Assembly (NCBI GenBank): GCA_016744995.1
Contig: JADGDG010000001.1
Location: 102,011-166,010, forward strand
DNA length: 64,000 nucleotides
DNA from: Gammaproteobacteria bacterium
Lineage (GTDB): Bacteria > Pseudomonadota > Gammaproteobacteria > GRL18
Direction of reading: 5' to 3'
Positions 17,189 through 61,205 of the stretch are shown here, one piece after another (within the stretch, counting starts at the first letter, position 1; each line of letters begins with the position of its first letter). The translations under genes were made by a program, and so were the position numbers. The notes beneath the pieces are model-generated. The model searched no databases. It saw only the letters and a list, made by a program, of their open reading frames with translations, and had not been told where the DNA came from.

Positions 17189-18049
17189 TTAAGCTCCTGG
17201 CATAATGATAGAAAGATAAAGTTTTACCGACAGCACAAAAAGTAAAACAGAGAAGATTCGACTTAACATTTGCTTTGATAAACGATGTGACAAATAAACA
17301 CCCACCTTTGCCGTTAACATAGATAAACTTATAATTGAGAAAAAAGCAGGCAGATAAATATAACCAACAAATAAATCATAAGTCATTACAGCTGTTTCTG
17401 GAAGCCCTTCTTTAAACAAAGGCATTTGCAAACTACTCCAGAAAAAACCGAGTGTACCCGATATTGCAATGGGCAATCCAAGGGCACTGGAAATGGCAAC
17501 GGCTCTTTGTATTGTGATATTGCCCCGATTCAAAAAAGGCACCGTCATCGTCCCGCCTCCGATACCAACAATAGCTGATATTACACCAATTAGCCCCCCG
17601 ACAAAACTCATCCCCGGCCAATCAGGTAATGGCTTCCTTGCATGCGGTGACCAGCCAAACCACATTTTTAAACTAACCACTAAAACAAAGCTGGCAAACA
17701 GAATTAGTAAAGGTGTTCGGGGTATAAAACTGGCAACCCATGCACCCAGAAAAGCACCCAGAAGAATTCCTGGAGCCAGAAGCCAGAATACAGACCAGTC
17801 AATGGCCTTTTTCTTTTGCTGAGAATAAATTGAAGATAAAGCTGTAAAGATGATTGTTGCCAAAGAAGTCGCAATGGCAATATGAACCTGATGCTCATAA
17901 GGAATAACTATACCATTATCAGCACTCAGAATTTCAAATACAATTAAACTAAAGGGCACAATAATTAAACCACCGCCAATACCCAGCAAACCTGCTGCCA
18001 GACCGGTGAAGGCACCAATTAACATGAAGCATAGAATTTCAACAAACAA
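17189..18049 (-). CDS. TauE/SafE family sulfite/anion exporter
   Basis: A membrane protein with about eight helices. Two copies of the family signature appear as FTGLAAGLLGIGGGLIIVP near the N terminus and GVISAIVGIGGGTMTVP in the middle. The frame stays open to 18109, but that extension lies in repeat DNA. The TTG at 18049 has GGAG eight bases upstream and gives a normal 286-residue protein, so I prefer it. The family exports sulfite, sulfoacetate or similar anions; the substrate here is unknown. The CWC gene follows closely. Confidence 0.87.
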   Translation of the reverse strand: MFVEILCFMLIGAFTGLAAGLLGIGGGLIIVPFSLIVFEILSADNGIVIPYEHQVHIAIATSLATIIFTALSSIYSQQKKKAIDWSVFWLLAPGILLGAFLGAWVASFIPRTPLLILFASFVLVVSLKMWFGWSPHARKPLPDWPGMSFVGGLIGVISAIVGIGGGTMTVPFLNRGNITIQRAVAISSALGLPIAISGTLGFFWSSLQMPLFKEGLPETAVMTYDLFVGYIYLPAFFSIISLSMLTAKVGVYLSHRLSKQMLSRIFSVLLFVLSVKLYLSIIMPGA

Positions 18050-18190
18050 GCTTAGATCTCCAGAAATAAAAACACCTGCCCTACGACCTAAGCAGCATCC
18101 CAAGGGCACTTCTTCCAGGGCGTAATTCGTTTGTTGTTCGAAAATAAAAAGAAGGGGGAGCGTTCGGACAAAATGCTGAGCCTGTCAATT

Positions 18191-18302
18191 GCACGCGAGA
18201 CTGACTCATCTAACTGGGGACGCTTCCAGTACGTCCATGTAACGCTTGCTGTCGCCGTCCATGGCTCCAAACACCCCAGTTAGACGAGCCAGTCTCACAT
18301 GC
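18191..18302. repeat. Hairpin A of the repeat family
   Basis: The arms 18191-18219 and 18274-18302 pair at 25 of 29 positions (core GACTGACTCATCTAACTGGGG) around a 54-base loop. The loop holds two GTCCAT segments, one flanked by GCC/GGC. Confidence 0.85.
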
Positions 18303-18450
18303 ACTCTTCTACCTCAGTTGTCCTCTCTGGTGTTGTCCAAAAGCAAAGAAAAATCAAAAGCATTGGATCTACATCTGGTTGAGCTAGAGCACTGTTGCTT
18401 TTTCTTTGCTTTTGATTTGGGACACTCCCAGAGAGAATAAATGCCTTAAG

Positions 18451-18572
18451 AGACTGTGAGGGAAGCTGGTGCAACAAACTGGGGTGTTTGGAGCCATGGA
18501 CGGCGACAGCAAGCGTTACATGGAGGTACTTGAAGCGTCCTCAGATTGTTGCACCAGCTTCCCTTGCAGTCG
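18451..18572. repeat. Hairpin B of the repeat family, with a replaced stem sequence
   Basis: The arms 18451-18484 and 18539-18572 pair at about 29 of 34 positions. The core GGGAAGCTGGTGCAACAA is unrelated to the stems of hairpins A, C and D. The 54-base loop is nearly identical to that of A and D (GTTTGGAGCCATGGACGG start). Stem pairing is thus preserved with another sequence. Confidence 0.87.
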
Positions 18573-18732
18573 TTTTATATACACTTATTCGAACGCCGCC
18601 ACTTCTTTTTTCTTTTTATTTTCAAACAACCAGAGAACTACACCCTGAAAGAAATATCCTTGGGGTGCCGCTTAGGTCGTAAGCCTGACATCCACTTTAG
18701 CAATTCGATTGCAAAATATGGAACTAATCTAC

Positions 18733-19335
18733 CTAGCTACTTAGTTTTTGCATAAAAGTATTAATATTTTTTGCCTTCAGCTGATTTTTTATCTGCTGCA
18801 TTTTCTTATCATCAGTGCTTGGCCCCACTCTGACGCGATATAACTTCTGACCATTATTCTGAATAACCTGAATATTTGACTCCACACCGAGAAATGCCAG
18901 TCGTGCTTTCATTGCATCGGCTTTGGACAGCTCTTTAAATGCCCCCACCTGCAACTGGTATAAGGATGTTGACTGTGGCGTTTTGACTTGATCGGAGGAT
19001 TTTTTTTCAGGTTTTTTATTCTGAACTGGAGCTGCTTTCTTTACCGCCTTCCTCTGCTCAACCTCAACAATTTCAACTTCACGATCAGGCAATACTGTGT
19101 AAAAATCAAATTCATGCTTTGGTGGCTGTTGCGGTTTATTTTTTTTAGCAGATGCTTGTTGCTCTGTGCTTATTGGCTTTTCAGCATCAACTGGTATTTT
19201 ATCCAGATAGACCAAAAAACCCACAAAAGCACTCACCAGGACACCAATCACAACCATTGATAAGGTTGAGAAACTTTGCTCAGTATTACGAGTGGCTCCA
19301 GTTTTTCTCTTACTGCGTTTTTTCTTAGCGGGCAT
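18733..19335 (-). CDS. SPOR-domain (FtsN-like) cell-division protein
   Basis: A 200-residue single-pass membrane protein. A basic cytoplasmic start (KKKRSKRK) is followed by a transmembrane helix at about 27-44 (LSMVVIGVLVSAFVGFLVYL). A Pro/Lys-rich linker leads to a C-terminal SPOR domain (about 125-200, SLYQLQVGAFKELSKADAMKARLAFLG and YRVRVGPS). SPOR domains bind denuded glycan at the septum. It follows argS by 28 bases, as in Pseudomonas and relatives. The hslVU genes usual downstream are absent; the hairpin repeat lies there instead. Confidence 0.92.
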   Translation of the reverse strand: MPAKKKRSKRKTGATRNTEQSFSTLSMVVIGVLVSAFVGFLVYLDKIPVDAEKPISTEQQASAKKNKPQQPPKHEFDFYTVLPDREVEIVEVEQRKAVKKAAPVQNKKPEKKSSDQVKTPQSTSLYQLQVGAFKELSKADAMKARLAFLGVESNIQVIQNNGQKLYRVRVGPSTDDKKMQQIKNQLKAKNINTFMQKLSS

Positions 19336-25043: not shown

Positions 25044-25262
25044 TTGTTCGAAAATCAAAAAAAGGGGCGTTCGGACAAAATGCTAAGCCTGTTGATTGCA
25101 CCCGACACTGGTTCATCTAACTGGGGACGCTTCAGGCCCATCCATGGGTCGCTTGACAGAAAACGTCCATGTTTTCTGACACCCCACTTAGACGAACCAG
25201 TCTCGCGCGCACTCTCCTACCTCAGTTGTCCTCACTGGTGTTGTCCAAAAGCAAAGAAAAAG
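25044..25262. repeat. Hairpin repeat, left border of the accessory region (hairpin C)
   Basis: This copy has the same order of blocks as the left half of the 18-kb element: a GTTCGAAAATC start, GCGTTCGGACAAAATGCT, the hairpin, then TACCTCAGTTGTCC and TTGTCCAAAAGCAAAG. Its hairpin arms (25098-25126 and 25182-25210) share the GACTGGTTCATCTAA-type stem. The 55-base loop differs from the other copies and has its own perfect 8-bp stem CAGAAAAC/GTTTTCTG. The 18- and 30-kb copies extend further outward; this one lacks that outer end. Confidence 0.87.
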
Positions 25263-25548: not shown

Positions 25549-25623
25549 GGTGAACGCCCCGCATCACCGGGAATTTGCAGCGCGTAGCAGAGCAAATTTT
25601 CCGAGTGAATGCGATTGTTATGC
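25549..25623 (-). other. attC-like recombination site downstream of the nuclease gene
   Basis: Read on the minus strand it runs from GCATAAC to GTTCACC over 75 bases. The two halves pair imperfectly (AACAATCGCATTCACTCGG against AACGCCCCGCATCACCGG, then a shared AATTTGC), with unpaired bases on one side as in integron attC sites. The outer GCATAAC complements the GTTATGC at the cassette's other end (27186-27192), as expected for one excisable cassette. It overlaps the stop codon of the nuclease gene. A covariance search is needed for proof. Confidence 0.5.
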
Positions 25624-27135
25624 ACTGCTTCCACCTAGCCACCTATATGCTCTCCTGAAGCCAAGATTCTCAGCCTCCTTTACAGTACTAACATATTTGT
25701 CACCTTTGTGTAACTTAACTTGAAACACATCATATTTTTGATCGAATGGTAGATGGTATATTTTGTCCTCTTCAGAATTAGCGTTACATTTTATCATTGG
25801 AAACTCTTCTAGCTTTTTATTCTGCACCACATCAACACCTAGCAAGTTTGCACATATCTTGGCTTGAGCAGATATCTTAGTAGATGTGAAGAATACAGGA
25901 ACAACTTTAAACTGCTGAAATACTGAATCGTAGTTATTGTTATTAACCTTGGCCCCATACTTTTCAACGAGATAAGATACGGCTGTTCCAAATATTTGAA
26001 AAATATGTTTTTCATGAATTATTTTGCTTTGTGACCAGTTTTTACACTGGATAATTTTAGTGACACCACCCTTTATAGCAATTAAATCTCTACCCATATC
26101 CTCAAATCCCTTTATCGCTCCTTGCATATAAACATCCCAGCCATCAGAAATGTAGAGATATGCTGCATACCTTTCATAAAGTATCCCAATTTCCCATTTT
26201 GACTTATTACTTCGTACATACCTATCTAGTTTAAGCTGATTCTTCTCTGACTCTGGAAGATTTGCTTCCTCATTGGTTAGAAGGTAACTCCCTTCTTCTG
26301 AATTTGATGATGATTCATTCACATCATTCCTTTCTTGTGAGATAGGAATAGCTGGCGGTGCATGATTAAATTTCTCTAGCCATGGAAATAGTTGCTCATA
26401 CAAACGGACAGTGTACTCATTGACTTTTGACTCCTTACGAATTCTCTTTACTTCAGCCGCCATTTCAGAGACCTTTTCAGAGCCTTTGTAAGATGGGTGA
26501 CTTTTAGTTCTAAGTGAATAGGCAACATTATCAAAGATGGCTTTATTAAGATCTGATACTTGCTCTCCCATCCATTCATGTAGTGTTAATATAGAGTTAT
26601 TTTCTTTACATCTGTTTACATAGTGTTCAGACAATTCAGAAGCTTGGAGAACTCCTTCCTTGATAATTCTCTCTACTTCATTCTTATATTGCCCTTCTTT
26701 ACTATCCCACAATGCACTGATTTCAATCGCCCGTTTTTCTAGACGTTGCTTTTCTTTTTCAAGATTATTCTTTGTCTTTATAATTTTTTTATTATCAGTT
26801 CCTATATTTATCAATTCTTTTTCTATTGTTTCATTATTGTTTACAAGCTGATCAATCCTTTTTGTCATTTCATTGACATAACGGTCTTCAACCCAAGGCA
26901 TCTTAGCATCGATAGGTAACCCCTTGTTATCTAGCTTGATACTTGCAATAGTCTTATTAAGATATTCCTTAAGCGCATTATTCTCTGATGTTTCTACAAC
27001 CTTTTTTAAAAACACCATATGAGATTGGAACATTTGATTAAATATATTCTTCGACCTTTTTCGTTCATTGCCGATGCGATAATGATTAAATGCTGCATAA
27101 AGTAAGCTGGCAGCTATGATCCATATTGCTTCCAT
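25618..27135 (-). CDS. Membrane-anchored Mrr-like restriction endonuclease
   Basis: A 505-residue protein of unknown exact role. An N-terminal transmembrane helix (about 2-20, AIWIIAASLLYAAF) is followed by a helical region with a strong coiled coil at about 85-160. Residues about 315-420 form a PD-(D/E)XK nuclease domain of the Mrr/type IV type. Candidate catalytic residues are Glu321 (YERY), Asp350 (MGRDLIAIKGG) and Gln363/Lys365 (IIQCKNW). The C-terminal 50 residues (YHLPFDQKYD to EAENLGFRRAYRW) resemble a cysteine-free version of the Ada-type DNA-binding module. It sits alone between two attC-like sites, consistent with one cassette. A defence or DNA-processing role is inferred, not shown. 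Confidence 0.75.
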   Translation of the reverse strand: MEAIWIIAASLLYAAFNHYRIGNERKRSKNIFNQMFQSHMVFLKKVVETSENNALKEYLNKTIASIKLDNKGLPIDAKMPWVEDRYVNEMTKRIDQLVNNNETIEKELINIGTDNKKIIKTKNNLEKEKQRLEKRAIEISALWDSKEGQYKNEVERIIKEGVLQASELSEHYVNRCKENNSILTLHEWMGEQVSDLNKAIFDNVAYSLRTKSHPSYKGSEKVSEMAAEVKRIRKESKVNEYTVRLYEQLFPWLEKFNHAPPAIPISQERNDVNESSSNSEEGSYLLTNEEANLPESEKNQLKLDRYVRSNKSKWEIGILYERYAAYLYISDGWDVYMQGAIKGFEDMGRDLIAIKGGVTKIIQCKNWSQSKIIHEKHIFQIFGTAVSYLVEKYGAKVNNNNYDSVFQQFKVVPVFFTSTKISAQAKICANLLGVDVVQNKKLEEFPMIKCNANSEEDKIYHLPFDQKYDVFQVKLHKGDKYVSTVKEAENLGFRRAYRWLGGSSA

Positions 27136-27185
27136 AATGTCGTTTTGTACCTTATTTTTATCTGTAGTGTAGATTCATTATTTAT

Positions 27186-27275
27186 GCATAACGTTTCGCC
27201 TCTAAGGCGAGCGCCATCGCACTCATCGAAGCGGCACTAACCGTGCCGCGAGCCCTTTGCAGGCGCTTGTTGTAA
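27186..27275 (-). other. attC-like recombination site upstream of the nuclease gene
   Basis: The 90-base imperfect palindrome runs on the minus strand from TTACAAC to GTTATGC. The outer arms share AAC and CGCCT, and inner arms are GGGCTCG and CGCTCGCC. A perfect apical stem GCGGCAC/GTGCCGC is at 27231-27237 and 27243-27249. Size and the CGCCT..AGGCG pattern resemble chromosomal integron attC sites. The nuclease ATG lies 51 bases beyond its end. Confidence 0.55.
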
Positions 27276-27285
27276 CCGCCACTTG

Positions 27286-28305
27286 TGTGTGATTCATAGA
27301 CATCGTTTCAATTTTCTCAGCTTTAAATCTAACCTATAATTGGGATTTTGTATACGCTCATTTTCGATATGGTAATCTTTATGAGTGTCTTCCTTAAAGG
27401 GAGTTTTATCGGCTAACTCGAAGTACTTTTCCATTGGGAATTTACCATTATGAGCACTGTGTGGTCGATCCCAGTTGTAATAATGTTGCCACTCAGCCAA
27501 TTGTTCATGCAATGATTCAGAATCTATATCTGTAATCGAGTAAAATTCTGTTTTATCCGTACCTTGAGAACGTTCAACTTTCCCATTTAAGTGGGGAGAG
27601 CCTGGTTTATTAGGTCGAAATTTAATCGTATATTTTTTCAGTTTTTCCTGAACTTTAACGGCGAAAAATTCAGTACCACGATCGGTTTGAATACGCTGAA
27701 TAGGAAATGGCATTTCTTCTATCAAACAATCAAGAAAGTCTAATGTATTAGCAGCGGTTCTGCGGCGATAAATTCTTAAAACTCTACAACGGGTACAATC
27801 ATCTATTGATGTGTATTGATAAATCCCTGGTGCAAGCTTACAGGTGTCCATCTGGACACGATCACCAGGAATGGGTCTCTGATAACGAATAAAATCCTTT
27901 TTCCTACGAAATTTCTTTATGGGTTTAACATTGTTCTTCTTAAGAATTTTATGAATAGTTGCCAGTGATAATGAAATCTTATGAAGGCGTTTTAACTCAC
28001 TCTGTATCCGCCTTGCTCCCAAGTTTCTTGATGTTCGCAACTCGAGGATAAGTGACTCTTCCTTATTAGAAGCTTTTCTATTTGGAGAGCTGTGTGGACG
28101 CCGACTTTGGCTTTCCAGACCAGCAATTCCTAACTCAGAATATCGACGCCACCACTTCCTTAGAGTTGGCCTGGAAATACCGCATCGACGACAGACAAAA
28201 CCAGCATTACCTGTCTGCTCATAAAGTTTAACCCACTTTAATCTTTGTTGAATTTCTCTGTTCATAATACCCCATTATAGTGAAAGGATGTCTATGAATC
28301 ACACA
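27286..28305 (-). mobile_element. IS481-family insertion sequence, 1020 bp
   Basis: Terminal inverted repeats TGTGTGATTCATAGACATC are perfect over 19 bases at both ends (27286-27304 and 28287-28305). One transposase gene fills the element. No target duplication is visible: the left flank ends CACTTG and the right flank starts GGTAT. The right end lies inside vapC; the missing vapC end is not found on the left side, so a flanking deletion or rearrangement probably followed insertion. Confidence 0.93.
27294..28265 (-). CDS. IS481-family transposase
   Basis: A 323-residue DDE transposase. The N-terminal helix-turn-helix (about 1-60) contains KWVKLYEQTGNAGFVCRRCGIS and a second HTH follows. In the catalytic core the first Asp is in VQMDTCKL, the second in IQTDRGTEF and the Glu in NGKVERSQGTDK. 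The end has the YNWDRPHSAHNGK motif. The gene is intact from ATG to stop and fills the element between the terminal repeats, so it could be active. Confidence 0.95.
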   Translation of the reverse strand: MNREIQQRLKWVKLYEQTGNAGFVCRRCGISRPTLRKWWRRYSELGIAGLESQSRRPHSSPNRKASNKEESLILELRTSRNLGARRIQSELKRLHKISLSLATIHKILKKNNVKPIKKFRRKKDFIRYQRPIPGDRVQMDTCKLAPGIYQYTSIDDCTRCRVLRIYRRRTAANTLDFLDCLIEEMPFPIQRIQTDRGTEFFAVKVQEKLKKYTIKFRPNKPGSPHLNGKVERSQGTDKTEFYSITDIDSESLHEQLAEWQHYYNWDRPHSAHNGKFPMEKYFELADKTPFKEDTHKDYHIENERIQNPNYRLDLKLRKLKRCL

Positions 28306-28578
28306 GGTATATCAATGCCATTTGAACCTGATTTCAAACAAGAAACTTGATAGTCTCTAATTTCTTCCCAATCAGGATGCATATGGTGTTGTTTTACCAT
28401 TTTTAATAAATTTATTATTTTTTTTTCTTGTTTTACAATGAGGAGAGGTAATAATTCTGTAAGAATCAGATCATTAATTACAATCAAATTTTCATCAATT
28501 AAAAAATCCAATTTTTCTGATTTATCTCCAGAGCGAAAATAATCAATCCACACAGAAGTATCTACTAACTACTTCCAT
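28306..28578 (-). pseudogene. vapC: vapC PIN-domain toxin remnant, frameshifted and cut by the insertion sequence
   Basis: The preserved part encodes VDTSVWIDYFRSGDK with the PIN-domain acidic residues, then a helical middle and CLKSGSNGIDIP, where the IS starts. The C-terminal third (the DLLIA region) is missing. The ATG at 28578 overlaps the vapB stop and reads MEVV, but the PIN frame is shifted there. The coding sequence looks two bases short in a T run (GTTAGTAGAT where GTTTTAGTAGAT would fit). Two independent lesions make the toxin inactive. Confidence 0.8.
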
Positions 28579-28772
28579 TATGATCTGTCTCTAATTGCAT
28601 CTAGATCAATGTCTAAATTAATTTTACCTTTAAATTTTTTTAGTTCAGATAATTCTGATTTTCTAATAAGCTCTTGAAGTGCAAACGTAATTACTTTTGT
28701 TTTTGTTTTTATATGTGAAACAGACATTGCTTCAAGTAAAAGCTCTTCTGGCAAATCTAGTGTTGTTCTCAT
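28578..28772 (-). CDS. vapB: VapB-type antitoxin (ribbon-helix-helix)
   Basis: A 64-residue protein starting MRTTLDLPEELL, a ribbon-helix-helix start typical of VapB antitoxins. A helix VITFALQELIRKSEL follows, and an acidic tail (INLDIDLDAIRDRS) would bind the toxin. The longer open frame back to 28871 is rejected because the ATG at 28772 has GGAG eight bases upstream and matches the family N terminus. Its stop overlaps the vapC start by one base. With the toxin destroyed, it is an orphan antitoxin. Confidence 0.8.
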   Translation of the reverse strand: MRTTLDLPEELLLEAMSVSHIKTKTKVITFALQELIRKSELSELKKFKGKINLDIDLDAIRDRS

Positions 28773-28853
28773 CTTGTTTACTCCAGTTTGCATGCATAGA
28801 ATTGCACTTTTATGCATAATTATCAAGATAGTAGGAGTGATGTAGTTTTGTGT

Positions 28854-28927
28854 ACCCAACGCCAAAATCATCGGGGTGTCTTTTAGCCTCTGATGAATTT
28901 TTTTATTATCTTTCTATCGTTCAGTTT
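28854..28927 (-). other. Possible degenerate attC-like site after higA
   Basis: On the minus strand the right half GGCGTTGGGT fits the GTTRRRY core of attC sites. An inner stem CATCAGAGG/CCCCGATG is present. The left half (AACGATAGAAAG) pairs only weakly. It lies exactly between higA and vapB, where a cassette boundary would be expected. Evidence is weaker than for the other three sites. Confidence 0.35.
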
Positions 28928-29285
28928 AAGCAATATCAGCTAATAGGCTTTCGTATGGAATGTTTAGCCCATCATGTAGACGTTTAACCATGCGCAGACT
29001 TAAAGGACGTTTTTTATTTAGTATTTCTGACACTCTTCCACTGCTCCCAATAAAAGTTTCTAAATCTCTAGCGGTTAAACCCTGTTGTTCCATTCTAAAC
29101 TTTATTGCTTCTATAGGGTTAGGAGGACTAATAGGGTAATGCTTATTCTCATAAGCTTCTATCAAAGTGACTAAAATCTCCATTTCATCAGATTCTTCAG
29201 TACCTTTTTTAGATTGAAACACCACCTCTAATTGACGGAAGGCAGCTTTTAAGTCTTTATCATTTCGGATTGGTTTAATATTCAT
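28926..29285 (-). CDS. higA: HigA-type antitoxin (XRE helix-turn-helix)
   Basis: A 119-residue protein. The N-terminal half is helical (LKAAFRQLEVVFQSKKGT), and the C-terminal half is an XRE DNA-binding domain with IKFRMEQQGLTARDLETFIGSSGRVSEILNKKRPLSLRMVKRLHDGL. It neutralises HigB and represses the operon. Its start overlaps the end of higB by 11 bases, the usual toxin-first order of higBA. Confidence 0.9.
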   Translation of the reverse strand: MNIKPIRNDKDLKAAFRQLEVVFQSKKGTEESDEMEILVTLIEAYENKHYPISPPNPIEAIKFRMEQQGLTARDLETFIGSSGRVSEILNKKRPLSLRMVKRLHDGLNIPYESLLADIA

Positions 29286-29583
29286 TTACATTCTCGACTG
29301 AAATTTTATCGTATTGAGCATGAGTACCTATAAATTTTACCCAAACAATACCAGCTTGATATTGAATTTCGACTACTAGTCGGTATTTATTGCCACCAAT
29401 ATTAAAAACCACTCGATTGTTTCCGCATATACTTGCGTTACCATATTGATTTTTTACATCTCGTGGTGATAACCAATTTGCTTTTATGGTTTCTTCATAC
29501 CAACTTTCAAGTGAACCTTTTGAATCACCATATGCTGGTTGCTCCCAGAATTTTCTTATAGTGCTTTTAGCAATCACTCTCAT
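29275..29583 (-). CDS. higB: HigB-type mRNA interferase toxin
   Basis: A 102-residue RelE-superfamily toxin with IRKFWEQPAYGDSKGSLESWY, the core NNRVVFNIGGNKYRLVVEIQYQAGIVWVKFIGTHAQYDKI and a short acidic tail. HigB cleaves mRNA on the ribosome. The gene is complete and preceded by a clear promoter with an operator between -10 and the start codon. A self-promoted toxin-antitoxin pair is typical for toxin cassettes in integrons. Confidence 0.9.
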   Translation of the reverse strand: MRVIAKSTIRKFWEQPAYGDSKGSLESWYEETIKANWLSPRDVKNQYGNASICGNNRVVFNIGGNKYRLVVEIQYQAGIVWVKFIGTHAQYDKISVENVNEY

Positions 29584-29986: not shown

Positions 29987-30208
29987 TTAATTTTCTATTT
30001 TATTACTTGTGTTTAATGATTGAATCTCTTTATCACTTGGTGATATGTCTTCTGGACATATCATTTCTTGTTTTCTATGGTAGGAGTACCCTAAATGTTC
30101 ACAGCCAACGATTGCTTCAAACAGCACTCCTCCAGTAATTGTGAGCCCAGCCGAATACTTCTTGAGTTTGTTCTTTTTGGAAAAACCAAAAATCTTTATA
30201 TTTAGATA
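29987..30208 (-). pseudogene. Fragment of an unrecognised gene without a start codon
   Basis: An open frame of 73 codons with protein-like composition (KKNKLKKYSAGLTITGG, VLFEAIVGCEHLGYSYH, CPEDISPSDKEIQSL) stops at 29987. It opens right after a TAA and has no ATG, GTG or TTG in its first half. It looks like the end of a gene whose beginning was lost or mutated. I do not recognise the family. It lies between the small cassette gene and the right-hand hairpin repeat. Confidence 0.4.
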
Positions 30209-30316
30209 TTACTGCTTTGAAGAATTTAACTCAAAAGATAAATTATGCTCAATGGGCTATAGGCTGACAGATTAAGCATTTGCTAATACTCCCTGACATT
30301 TAGTATGAATATTACT

Positions 30317-30600
30317 GAGCTAGAGTGCTGTTGCTGTTGCTGTTTCTTTGCTTTTGGACAACACCAGTGAGGACAACTGAGGTAGAAGAGTGTACGCGAG
30401 ACTGGTTCGTCTAACTGGGGTGTTTGGAGCCATGGACGGCGACAGCAAGCGTTACATGGACGTACCAGAAGCGTCCCCAGCTAGACGAATCAGTGTCGGG
30501 TGCAATCGGCAGATTCAGCACTTCGTCCGAACGCCCTCTTCTTTTGACCTTCGAACACCAATGAATTACGCCCAGGTAGAAGTCCCCTTCAGGGCCACTA
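30317..30600. repeat. Hairpin repeat, right border of the accessory region (hairpin D)
   Basis: An inverted copy relative to 25044-25262 that matches the right half of the 18-kb element: GAGCTAGAG start, TTTCTTTGCTTTTGGACAAC, then the hairpin with arms 30391-30420 and 30475-30504. A 54-base loop nearly identical to those of hairpins A and B follows, then TTCGTCCGAACGCC and an outer end with AATTACGCCCAGG. It ends about 30 bases before the hemE stop codon. Open frames inside it are not genes. Confidence 0.88.
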
Positions 30601-46655: not shown

Positions 46656-46679
46656 TTAAATCTATCTCTATTGTTCTAG

Positions 46680-46757
46680 CTAAAAGAGTTTCAACTAATA
46701 AGAGTTCCAACTAAAAGAGTTTTAACTAATAAGAGTTCCAACTAAAAAAGTTCCAAC
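46680..46757. repeat. 15-16-base tandem repeat between pilO and pilP
   Basis: Five imperfect units of the form CTAAAAGAGTTTCAA or CTAATAAGAGTTCCAA lie in tandem, with a higher-order period of 31 bases. They fill most of the 134-base gap inside the pil operon. The sequence is transcribed with the operon and may mark replication slippage. Confidence 0.9.
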
Positions 46758-46789
46758 CGGCAAAAATTCATTAACGATTCTTCAGCTTA

Positions 46790-59807: not shown

Positions 59808-61205
59808 TTAAAAGCTTTTGGAAACACTCAGGATAAAGCGGTCATCGCAATTACCTTTTTTATGATCATAACCATAAGCATTACATTCATTTTTGCTTAA
59901 GTCGTTGCCCACATAACTCAGGTCAAAATTTACACCCGCGATATCTTTGCTTAAACCTAACTTATAATCAACGTAGTCATAATCAGTGCCGCCAGAAACT
60001 TCGTAGGCATCACCAAATGATTTACCAACACTTGCACTAAGGGCCAGCCCCATTGGCAACTCATCATAGTCAAATCCAGCGTGAACATACTTTGATGAAT
60101 CATGGCTGCCAAACCAGCTTGGGCTGTAAGCAAATCCTGCAGAAAAATAACTATAGGTACCACTGACATACCACTCAACCGGATCATCATGAGCTGAGGT
60201 ATCATTGTAGTTATACTTTATAACACCCACATCATAACCAAAGTCACCTGCTTCACCAGCATAACCTGCATAGGTATCTAACTCTAAATGAGTATCCCCA
60301 AAGCTTACATTTGAAGCCCAGACACCCACATAAACACCACTATCATGGGCCCAGTCAAATCCACCCTGGAGTGCACCATCATTATCAGTTTGAGAGATAC
60401 CACGGAAATAATAATCTGTCACTAAGGCAACATTTGCTGAAATCGGCAGTTCAGAACCTTCTGATGACTTGCTGACATCATCCAGAGACTTAGACACAGT
60501 TAAAACAAAGCGATCATCACAATTGCCTTTGCTCGCGGCATAACCATAAGCATTACATTCTTTATTGCTTAAATCATTACCCACATAGCTCAATTCCCAA
60601 TTTAAGCCATAATAGTCCTTACTCACACCTATTTTATAATCAACATAGTCATAATCAGTGCCGCCAGAAACTTCATAAGCATCACCAAACGATTTACCAA
60701 CACTAGCACTCAGGGCTAGCCCCATTGGCAACTCATCATAATCAAACCCCAAATGAAAATACTTAGAAGAATCATGGCTGCCAAACCAGCTTGAGCTGTA
60801 AGCAAATCCTGCAGAGAAGTAACTATATGTACCATTAATATACCATTCCACTGGATCATCATGAGCTGAGGTATCATTGTAGTTATACTTTATAACACCC
60901 ACATCATAGCCAAAATCACCGATGTCATTAGCGAAACCAGCATAAGTATCAAATTCTAGGTGAGTATCACCAAAGCTGACATTAGAAGCCCAGACACCAA
61001 CATAAGCGCCGCTATCATGTGCCCAGTCAAATCCACCCTGGAGTGCGCCATCATTATCAGTCTGTGAAATACCACGGAAATAATAATCAGTCGTTAAAGC
61101 AACATTTGCCGAAACTGTACCAAAGCCTTCTGCATTAGCAATAAGTGGTGTTGCAACAACCGAAGCCACCGCCAGTGAAAGTAAAGATTTTCTAATTGTA
61201 CTCAT
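59808..61205 (-). CDS. Internally duplicated TorF-family putative porin
   Basis: A 465-residue outer-membrane protein with a signal peptide (about 1-25, ending IANA). Two nearly identical copies of a TorF/Gcw_chp-type module follow (about 31-250 and 255-465, period 224 residues), each starting SANVAL.TDYYFRGISQT and containing WFGSHDSSKY, a GKSFGDAYEV strand and a pair of cysteines (ECNAYGY..KGNCDDRF). A single module normally makes the whole protein, so this is a tandem fusion. The DNA copies are also very similar, indicating a recent or gene-converted duplication. The substrate is unknown. Confidence 0.87.
   Translation of the reverse strand: MSTIRKSLLSLAVASVVATPLIANAEGFGTVSANVALTTDYYFRGISQTDNDGALQGGFDWAHDSGAYVGVWASNVSFGDTHLEFDTYAGFANDIGDFGYDVGVIKYNYNDTSAHDDPVEWYINGTYSYFSAGFAYSSSWFGSHDSSKYFHLGFDYDELPMGLALSASVGKSFGDAYEVSGGTDYDYVDYKIGVSKDYYGLNWELSYVGNDLSNKECNAYGYAASKGNCDDRFVLTVSKSLDDVSKSSEGSELPISANVALVTDYYFRGISQTDNDGALQGGFDWAHDSGVYVGVWASNVSFGDTHLELDTYAGYAGEAGDFGYDVGVIKYNYNDTSAHDDPVEWYVSGTYSYFSAGFAYSPSWFGSHDSSKYVHAGFDYDELPMGLALSASVGKSFGDAYEVSGGTDYDYVDYKLGLSKDIAGVNFDLSYVGNDLSKNECNAYGYDHKKGNCDDRFILSVSKSF

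Follow-up and report, generated by a model that had tools for sequence, protein, structure and literature searches.

TwoAYGGAY-type hairpins of a gammaproteobacterial genus form a high-copy repeat of inverted pairs in which stems vary and CsrA-type loops are conserved

Results

Four hairpins of one family in a 64-kb window

The window analyzed here, a stretch of 64,000 nucleotides from a gammaproteobacterial genome (G000; 5.18 Mb in 65 contigs), carries four long hairpins, named A to D (Table 1). All four fold far more stably than dinucleotide shuffles (z = -5.6, -10.8, -6.7 and -6.6, respectively), and they score 100-118 bits against R1, a covariance model derived from 52 copies of the family that include hairpins A-D. 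They belong to one family, as originally predicted. The "loop" of the accompanying description, which placed one inside each stem, is not unstructured; it contains two small hairpins. Hairpin B had been singled out for a differing stem, and it indeed carries one (GGGAAGCTGGTGCAACAA...) beneath a tip that is nearly identical to the others. The orientation needed correction: hairpins A and C are read from the minus strand, and A and B consequently form an inverted, 5'-to-5' pair.

The A/B pair is part of a composite of ~600 bp with two sets of inverted arms. Hairpins C and D have the same minus-then-plus order as the short pairs, yet they are ~5 kb apart, with toxin-antitoxin and transposase genes and a gene for a 505-aa protein, which had no Pfam match, between them. 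Elsewhere in the window, the ORF 59808-61205 contains direct repeats (59818-60915; 300 and 115 nt long, at a spacing of 672 nt) that represent internal protein repeats, and a 31-nt unit (GTTCTAGCTAAAAGAGTTTCAACTAATAAGA and variants) occurs in three tandem copies at 46673-46765.

Table 1. Features of the hairpin family in the window (covariance-model E-values are rough by construction)
Feature	Position	Strand	Description	Evidence
Hairpin A	18186..18307	-	TwoAYGGAY-type, A/D-type stem	R1 117.9 bits; RF01731 30.4 bits
Hairpin B	18451..18572	+	TwoAYGGAY-type, B-type stem	R1 116.9 bits; RF01731 40.6 bits, E 0.001
Hairpin C	25093..25215	-	A/D-type stem	R1 100.1 bits; not in the RF01731 listing
Hairpin D	30387..30508	+	A/D-type stem	R1 112.4 bits; RF01731 26.6 bits, E 1.6
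A, first hexaloop site	18256..18263	-	CATGGACG	read from sequence
A, second hexaloop site	18232..18239	-	CATGGACG	read from sequence
B, first hexaloop site	18495..18502	+	CATGGACG (CANGGANG)	read from sequence; invariance computed across copies
B, second hexaloop site	18519..18526	+	CATGGAGG (CANGGANG)	read from sequence
C, first hexaloop site	25164..25171	-	CATGGACG	read from sequence
C, second hexaloop site	25139..25146	-	CATGGATG	read from sequence
D, first hexaloop site	30431..30438	+	CATGGACG	read from sequence
D, second hexaloop site	30455..30462	+	CATGGACG	read from sequence
A/B composite	18098..18733	.	head-to-head hairpins, short terminal inverted ends ACGACCTAAGC / GCTTAGGTCGT	
Inverted arms of A/B composite	18082-18153 / 18610-18681; 18190-18362 / 18396-18568			
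Genes between C and D	25618..29583	-	HigB toxin + HTH antitoxin, VapB-like antitoxin, rve/IS481-like transposase, 505-aa protein	

The hairpins belong to the TwoAYGGAY family

A permissive Rfam scan named the family as TwoAYGGAY (RF01731), a motif described by Weinberg et al. 2010 with gammaproteobacteria among its hosts (PMC2864571). Both features of this motif, i.e., two hairpins with AYGGAY loops and a long closing stem with covariation, are present in the repeat. The gathering score of RF01731 is 43 bits; all scores in the window fall below it, with hairpin B coming nearest, and a standard gathering-score scan of the window detected none of the four hairpins. In a congener, two copies pass this score (45.6 and 43.1 bits). 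The homology of the window copies to TwoAYGGAY is carried by the genus-wide alignment. The permissive list also contained microRNA families, which we rejected as long-stem look-alikes that score far under their own thresholds.

The main stem changes its sequence and keeps its pairing

We aligned 52 copies from the genus (alignment A1) and evaluated a structure consisting of the main stem P1 (32 pairs) and the two small tip stems P2 (3 pairs) and P3 (4 pairs). Across the whole structure 93.4% of cells pair, in comparison to 64.2% in shuffled and at most 43.3% in slid controls, and the covariation score is 0.750 versus 0.198 (shuffled) and at most 0.137 (slid). In P1, 92.2% of cells are paired and double changes occur at 30 of the 32 pairs. 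Changes on both sides were counted in 560 cells of the alignment with 154 expected, counts that carry no tree correction. The original suggestion that pairing is preserved despite altered sequence, through selection for structure, is supported by this covariation, which greatly exceeds both controls. The sequence of the main stem hardly matters; the ~32-bp stem changes almost freely while its pairing stays.

The remaining mismatches carry strand information. Among all collected copies, P1 contains 304 G.T and 46 A.C mismatches (103 and 23 in A1), a 4.5-6.6-fold excess of G.T on the loop strand, while we estimate a ratio of ~1.4:1 from arm composition alone. Such an excess points to folding of that particular strand, either as RNA or as single-stranded DNA; single-stranded DNA of the same strand would favor G.T too.

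Several gaps between genes carry hairpins in more than one species. The FliL/hemE gap contains them in the genome of the window and in G003, G004, G008, G011, and G013, and the gap around position 486268 of contig C35, which we take to be bioF/bioB from protein likeness, contains pairs in G007 and G004 as well. At these shared loci, most stems show no relation between species, with 5' arm identities chiefly of 0.31-0.5 and a few of 0.53-0.72; they are still paired, mostly at 0.87-0.97. Either the shared gaps are insertion hotspots, or the stems there were rewritten in place. Targeted replacement of arms, which the original prediction had offered as an alternative, is conceivable.

Template switching at palindromes, which copies one arm onto the other, would generate covariation without any selection on the fold. 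This process would account for the unrelated yet paired stems at FliL/hemE and in the second neighborhood, and for a stem divergence that far exceeds that of the tip and the flanks. However, arm copying is strand-blind and predicts equal numbers of G.T and A.C mismatches, in contrast to those observed, and it leaves the invariant loops unexplained. As a full explanation we regard it as quite improbable, although arm copying could still underlie a rapid rate of double changes, with selection superimposed.

The tip presents two CsrA-type loops under strong constraint

At the tip of the stem sit two small hairpins, and their CANGGANG loops are almost invariant. In A1, the CANGGANG loop is present in 52 of 52 copies at the first position and 52 of 52 at the second, mostly as ATGGAY with the two N positions free, a figure that is partly due to selection because A1 was gathered with a GGA-containing pattern; 48 of the 52 copies have their two GGA triplets spaced 24 nt apart. 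To obtain a set free of this bias, we used 49 copies from the genome of the window that were found through similarity to the whole repeat, and 97 of their 98 loops are intact. Among these copies, the 12 fixed loop bases show a mean pairwise difference of 0.003, in comparison to 0.324 for the N positions of the loops, 0.223 for the remainder of the tip, and 0.259 for the stem. The loops are thus CsrA-type sites under much stronger constraint than their surroundings.

For RsmE, the published optimum is A/UCANGGANGU/A (PMC5864733, PMC6849547). The CANGGANG of the repeat loops equals this published RsmE/CsrA motif, is presented in a hexaloop and occurs as two sites per molecule. Furthermore, a 2014 publication about the annotation of RNA motifs (PMC4333381) proposed TwoAYGGAY as a CsrA binder, and a scan of E. 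coli K-12 csrB revealed that Rfam clan CL00106 holds both RF01731 and CsrB. Based on these similarities, the family probably binds the global RNA regulator CsrA.

A csrA gene with a canonical sequence is present in the genome of the window (contig 48) and in 22 of 24 genomes of the family; in G015, which is 81% complete, csrA was not detected, yet at least 87 repeat copies were found. Across the class, csrA was found in 59 of 63 genomes carrying the repeat and in 254 of 306 non-carriers (p = 0.03), a co-occurrence too weak to weigh since csrA is nearly universal. The CsrB model RF00018, which is tuned to its own relatives, gave no match in the 24 family genomes and a positive one in the E. coli control; this is weak evidence against a CsrB homologue in the family. 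Sigma-70-like promoters did not exceed chance at 17950-18800, although the promoters of this lineage may differ.

Copy number, subfamilies and distribution

Repeat copies were gathered from the genome of the window by sequence searches, which recovered ~54 copies or fragments. By best match, ~39 of them have the A/D-type stem and ~14-15 the B-type stem, one of the latter being a 43-bp scrap. Hairpin B is hence one of a subfamily of ~14 copies, and stems vary copy by copy across the genus; its reading as a single chance rearrangement, which the original prediction had named as the alternative, is unsupported. The repeat is carried by most sampled members of the genus, and the stems vary even inside one genome while the tip stays constant.

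Scanning with R1 revealed the fold in 14 of 16 genomes of the genus, with at least 53 copies in the genome of the window, at least 113 in G009 and at least 87 in G015, in 20 of 24 genomes of the family, and in 63 of 369 sampled genomes (55 of 271 genera) of the class. Both loops are kept in 28 of the 29 best class-level matches, and these matches are therefore more than mere long hairpins. An exact-pattern scan of genome contigs identified one relevant organism, the MAG BB36, with chance-like remaining matches, and the repeat elements had zero matches in the plasmid and phage collections. Contigs that end in or beside the repeat were noted in two genomes (C3 and C52 of G000; C100 and C135 of G012); with assemblies breaking at the repeat, true copy numbers are probably higher.

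Pair architecture and gene context

All 12 close pairs in the genome of the window are 5'-to-5' inverted and combine one A/D-type with one B-type hairpin, six in the order D-B and six in the order B-D when the pair containing the scrap is counted. In the genus, 31 of 31 close neighbors among the 149 matches listed are arranged minus-then-plus, 77-261 bp apart. The stems were unlike in 24 of 24 pairs from relatives, with a mean best-shift identity of 0.45 versus 0.54 for all same-genome comparisons. Unlike stems prevent the two hairpins of one pair from pairing together, and this may be their purpose. Because of the 5'-to-5' order, any transcript that crosses a pair would include just one hairpin in sense orientation, whichever side it enters from.

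The linker within pairs (18327-18430; also at loci L115, L147, and L148) is an inverted, purine/pyrimidine-asymmetric repeat of AGCAAR/CTTTTG-like units that vary in number. A second conserved stretch (..TTTAGTATGAATCTTTATTACTC..), which differs from the pair linker, is shared by single copies on their 5' side, at 30183-30340 and on contigs C22 and C33 of the same genome; another repeat or island may have its boundary there.

In 22 of 27 single copies in the genome of the window, the 3' tail faces a neighboring gene's 3' end (p = 0.0015), often within 10-80 bp of it; the count omits fragments and one contig-end copy and is approximate, as gene calls were simple ORFs. This placement would fit bidirectional transcription terminators or stabilizers of mRNA 3' ends. 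However, the stems lack a following U-tract, and the intrinsic terminator patterns around A/B occur at chance level only. In addition, by the same simple ORF calls, divergent genes flank roughly one in two complete pairs in this genome and convergent genes flank none, and a Csr motif in the loops would be needless. Taken together, a terminator or stabilizer role seems very improbable.

Mobility and the search for an enzyme

Presence and absence of the repeat differ between species. The site of the A/B composite is empty in the relative G012 (contig 99), and the genes flanking C and D are 63 bp apart there, with the stretch 25618-29583 absent. The site of the pair on contig C7 is short in three relatives, and the sites on C21 and C30 are short in some. 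These empty sites support the view that the repeat has spread. The ends of the element carry an inverted ACGACC(A/T)TAGC-like motif, and no clear target-site duplication was seen at the three sites compared. GCTTTAC/GCTTTGC-like letters occur in the empty sites of relatives (18076-18095, 18664-18684, L252, L253); they resemble the outer end of the element (GCTTTACGACC) and are a possible target motif.

The repeat could be mainly a mobile DNA element, with single-stranded DNA hairpins on which a transposase or recombinase acts and loops that serve as the binding sites of that enzyme instead of CsrA sites. T-shaped hairpins are found at the ends of single-stranded DNA elements, and the many near-identical copies per genome, the terminal inverted ends and the empty sites in relatives are in accordance with such an element. 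Nevertheless, a mobilizing enzyme common to the repeat loci was not found. A linked REP-type (Y1) transposase, which the original prediction had proposed to look for, was not supported: Y1 is absent from G004, which has at least 28 copies, and present in G014, which has none, and no Y1 gene lies near the copies in the genome of the window. Moreover, the loop letters match the Csr/Rsm consensus position by position, free N positions included, and TwoAYGGAY copies of other families were found to be single or otherwise arranged. A mainly mobile function of the hairpins is therefore unlikely. Most genomes of the genus carry one gene for a protein of ~280-300 aa whose Y1 transposase domain is weak (C35:380572-380844 in G000); it is at no repeat copy in this genome and is possibly domesticated.

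Discussion

A paired repeat that may act as a CsrA decoy

We favor the explanation, with a probability of about two in three, that TwoAYGGAY RNAs exist here as a paired dispersed repeat that is most likely transcribed and enlarges the CsrA decoy pool. Each hairpin consists of a ~32-bp stem topped by two small hairpins that would offer CsrA/RsmA two CANGGANG loops ~24 nt apart. In the gammaproteobacterial family of the host, the motif has turned into a dispersed repeat, and its short form consists of two 5'-to-5' hairpins with unlike stems. The copies most likely ride on read-through or untranslated transcripts, and many of them jointly could enlarge the decoy pool of the cell. Transcription, CsrA binding and titration by the copies are predicted here from sequence and conservation, and the mobile repeat may act as a CsrA decoy in this way.

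A bolder version, which is conceivable albeit doubtful, is that a selfish or domesticated repeat captured a CsrA-binding fold, that its 25-110 copies per genome titrate the regulator, and that its stems are actively rewritten in place. Rewriting that keeps the pairing would explain the unrelated stems at one locus across species.

TwoAYGGAY dates from 2010, and none of the papers found reports a demonstrated function for it. With tens of copies per genome, the idea of CsrA binding can be tested through conservation alone: the Csr/Rsm letters resist change and their surroundings do not. The copies also constitute an unusually rich natural data set on long stems that change their letters with the pairing intact.

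Comparison with known systems

The repeat shares two AYGGAY terminal loops on small hairpins atop a long stem with TwoAYGGAY as described. It differs in being a high-copy, 5'-to-5' paired dispersed repeat whose stems vary copy by copy, and the window copies fall under the Rfam gathering threshold. We found no description of this high-copy paired form in the open-access literature searched.

Similar to REP/BIME elements and REPINs with their RAYT, the repeat is intergenic, palindromic and present in many copies and inverted pairs; however, its units are longer (pairs of ~470-650 bp) and have a structured tip, the stem sequence is not conserved, and a RAYT association is absent. Integron attC sites were considered as well, since the A/D-type stem contains letters that read as ATCTAAC/GTTAGAC-like boxes. 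These R-box-like letters are restricted to one stem type, most other family members lack them, and the pairing extends well past the boxes; the likeness is therefore a coincidence of one stem sequence, and we rejected this candidate.

The sponge RNAs CsrB/CsrC and RsmX/Y/Z are encoded by one to few dedicated genes, each with many GGA sites. The repeat resembles them in the CsrA-sequestering GGA motifs in hairpin loops and in the clan shared with CsrB, and differs in that each unit has two sites and the units number in the tens. The Alteromonas Aln1 RNAs (PMC5864184) are likewise dedicated CsrB-like sRNAs and not a repeat. If the copies described here are transcribed, the job of CsrB would be spread over a mobile repeat, and the free level of the regulator would be tied to copy number.
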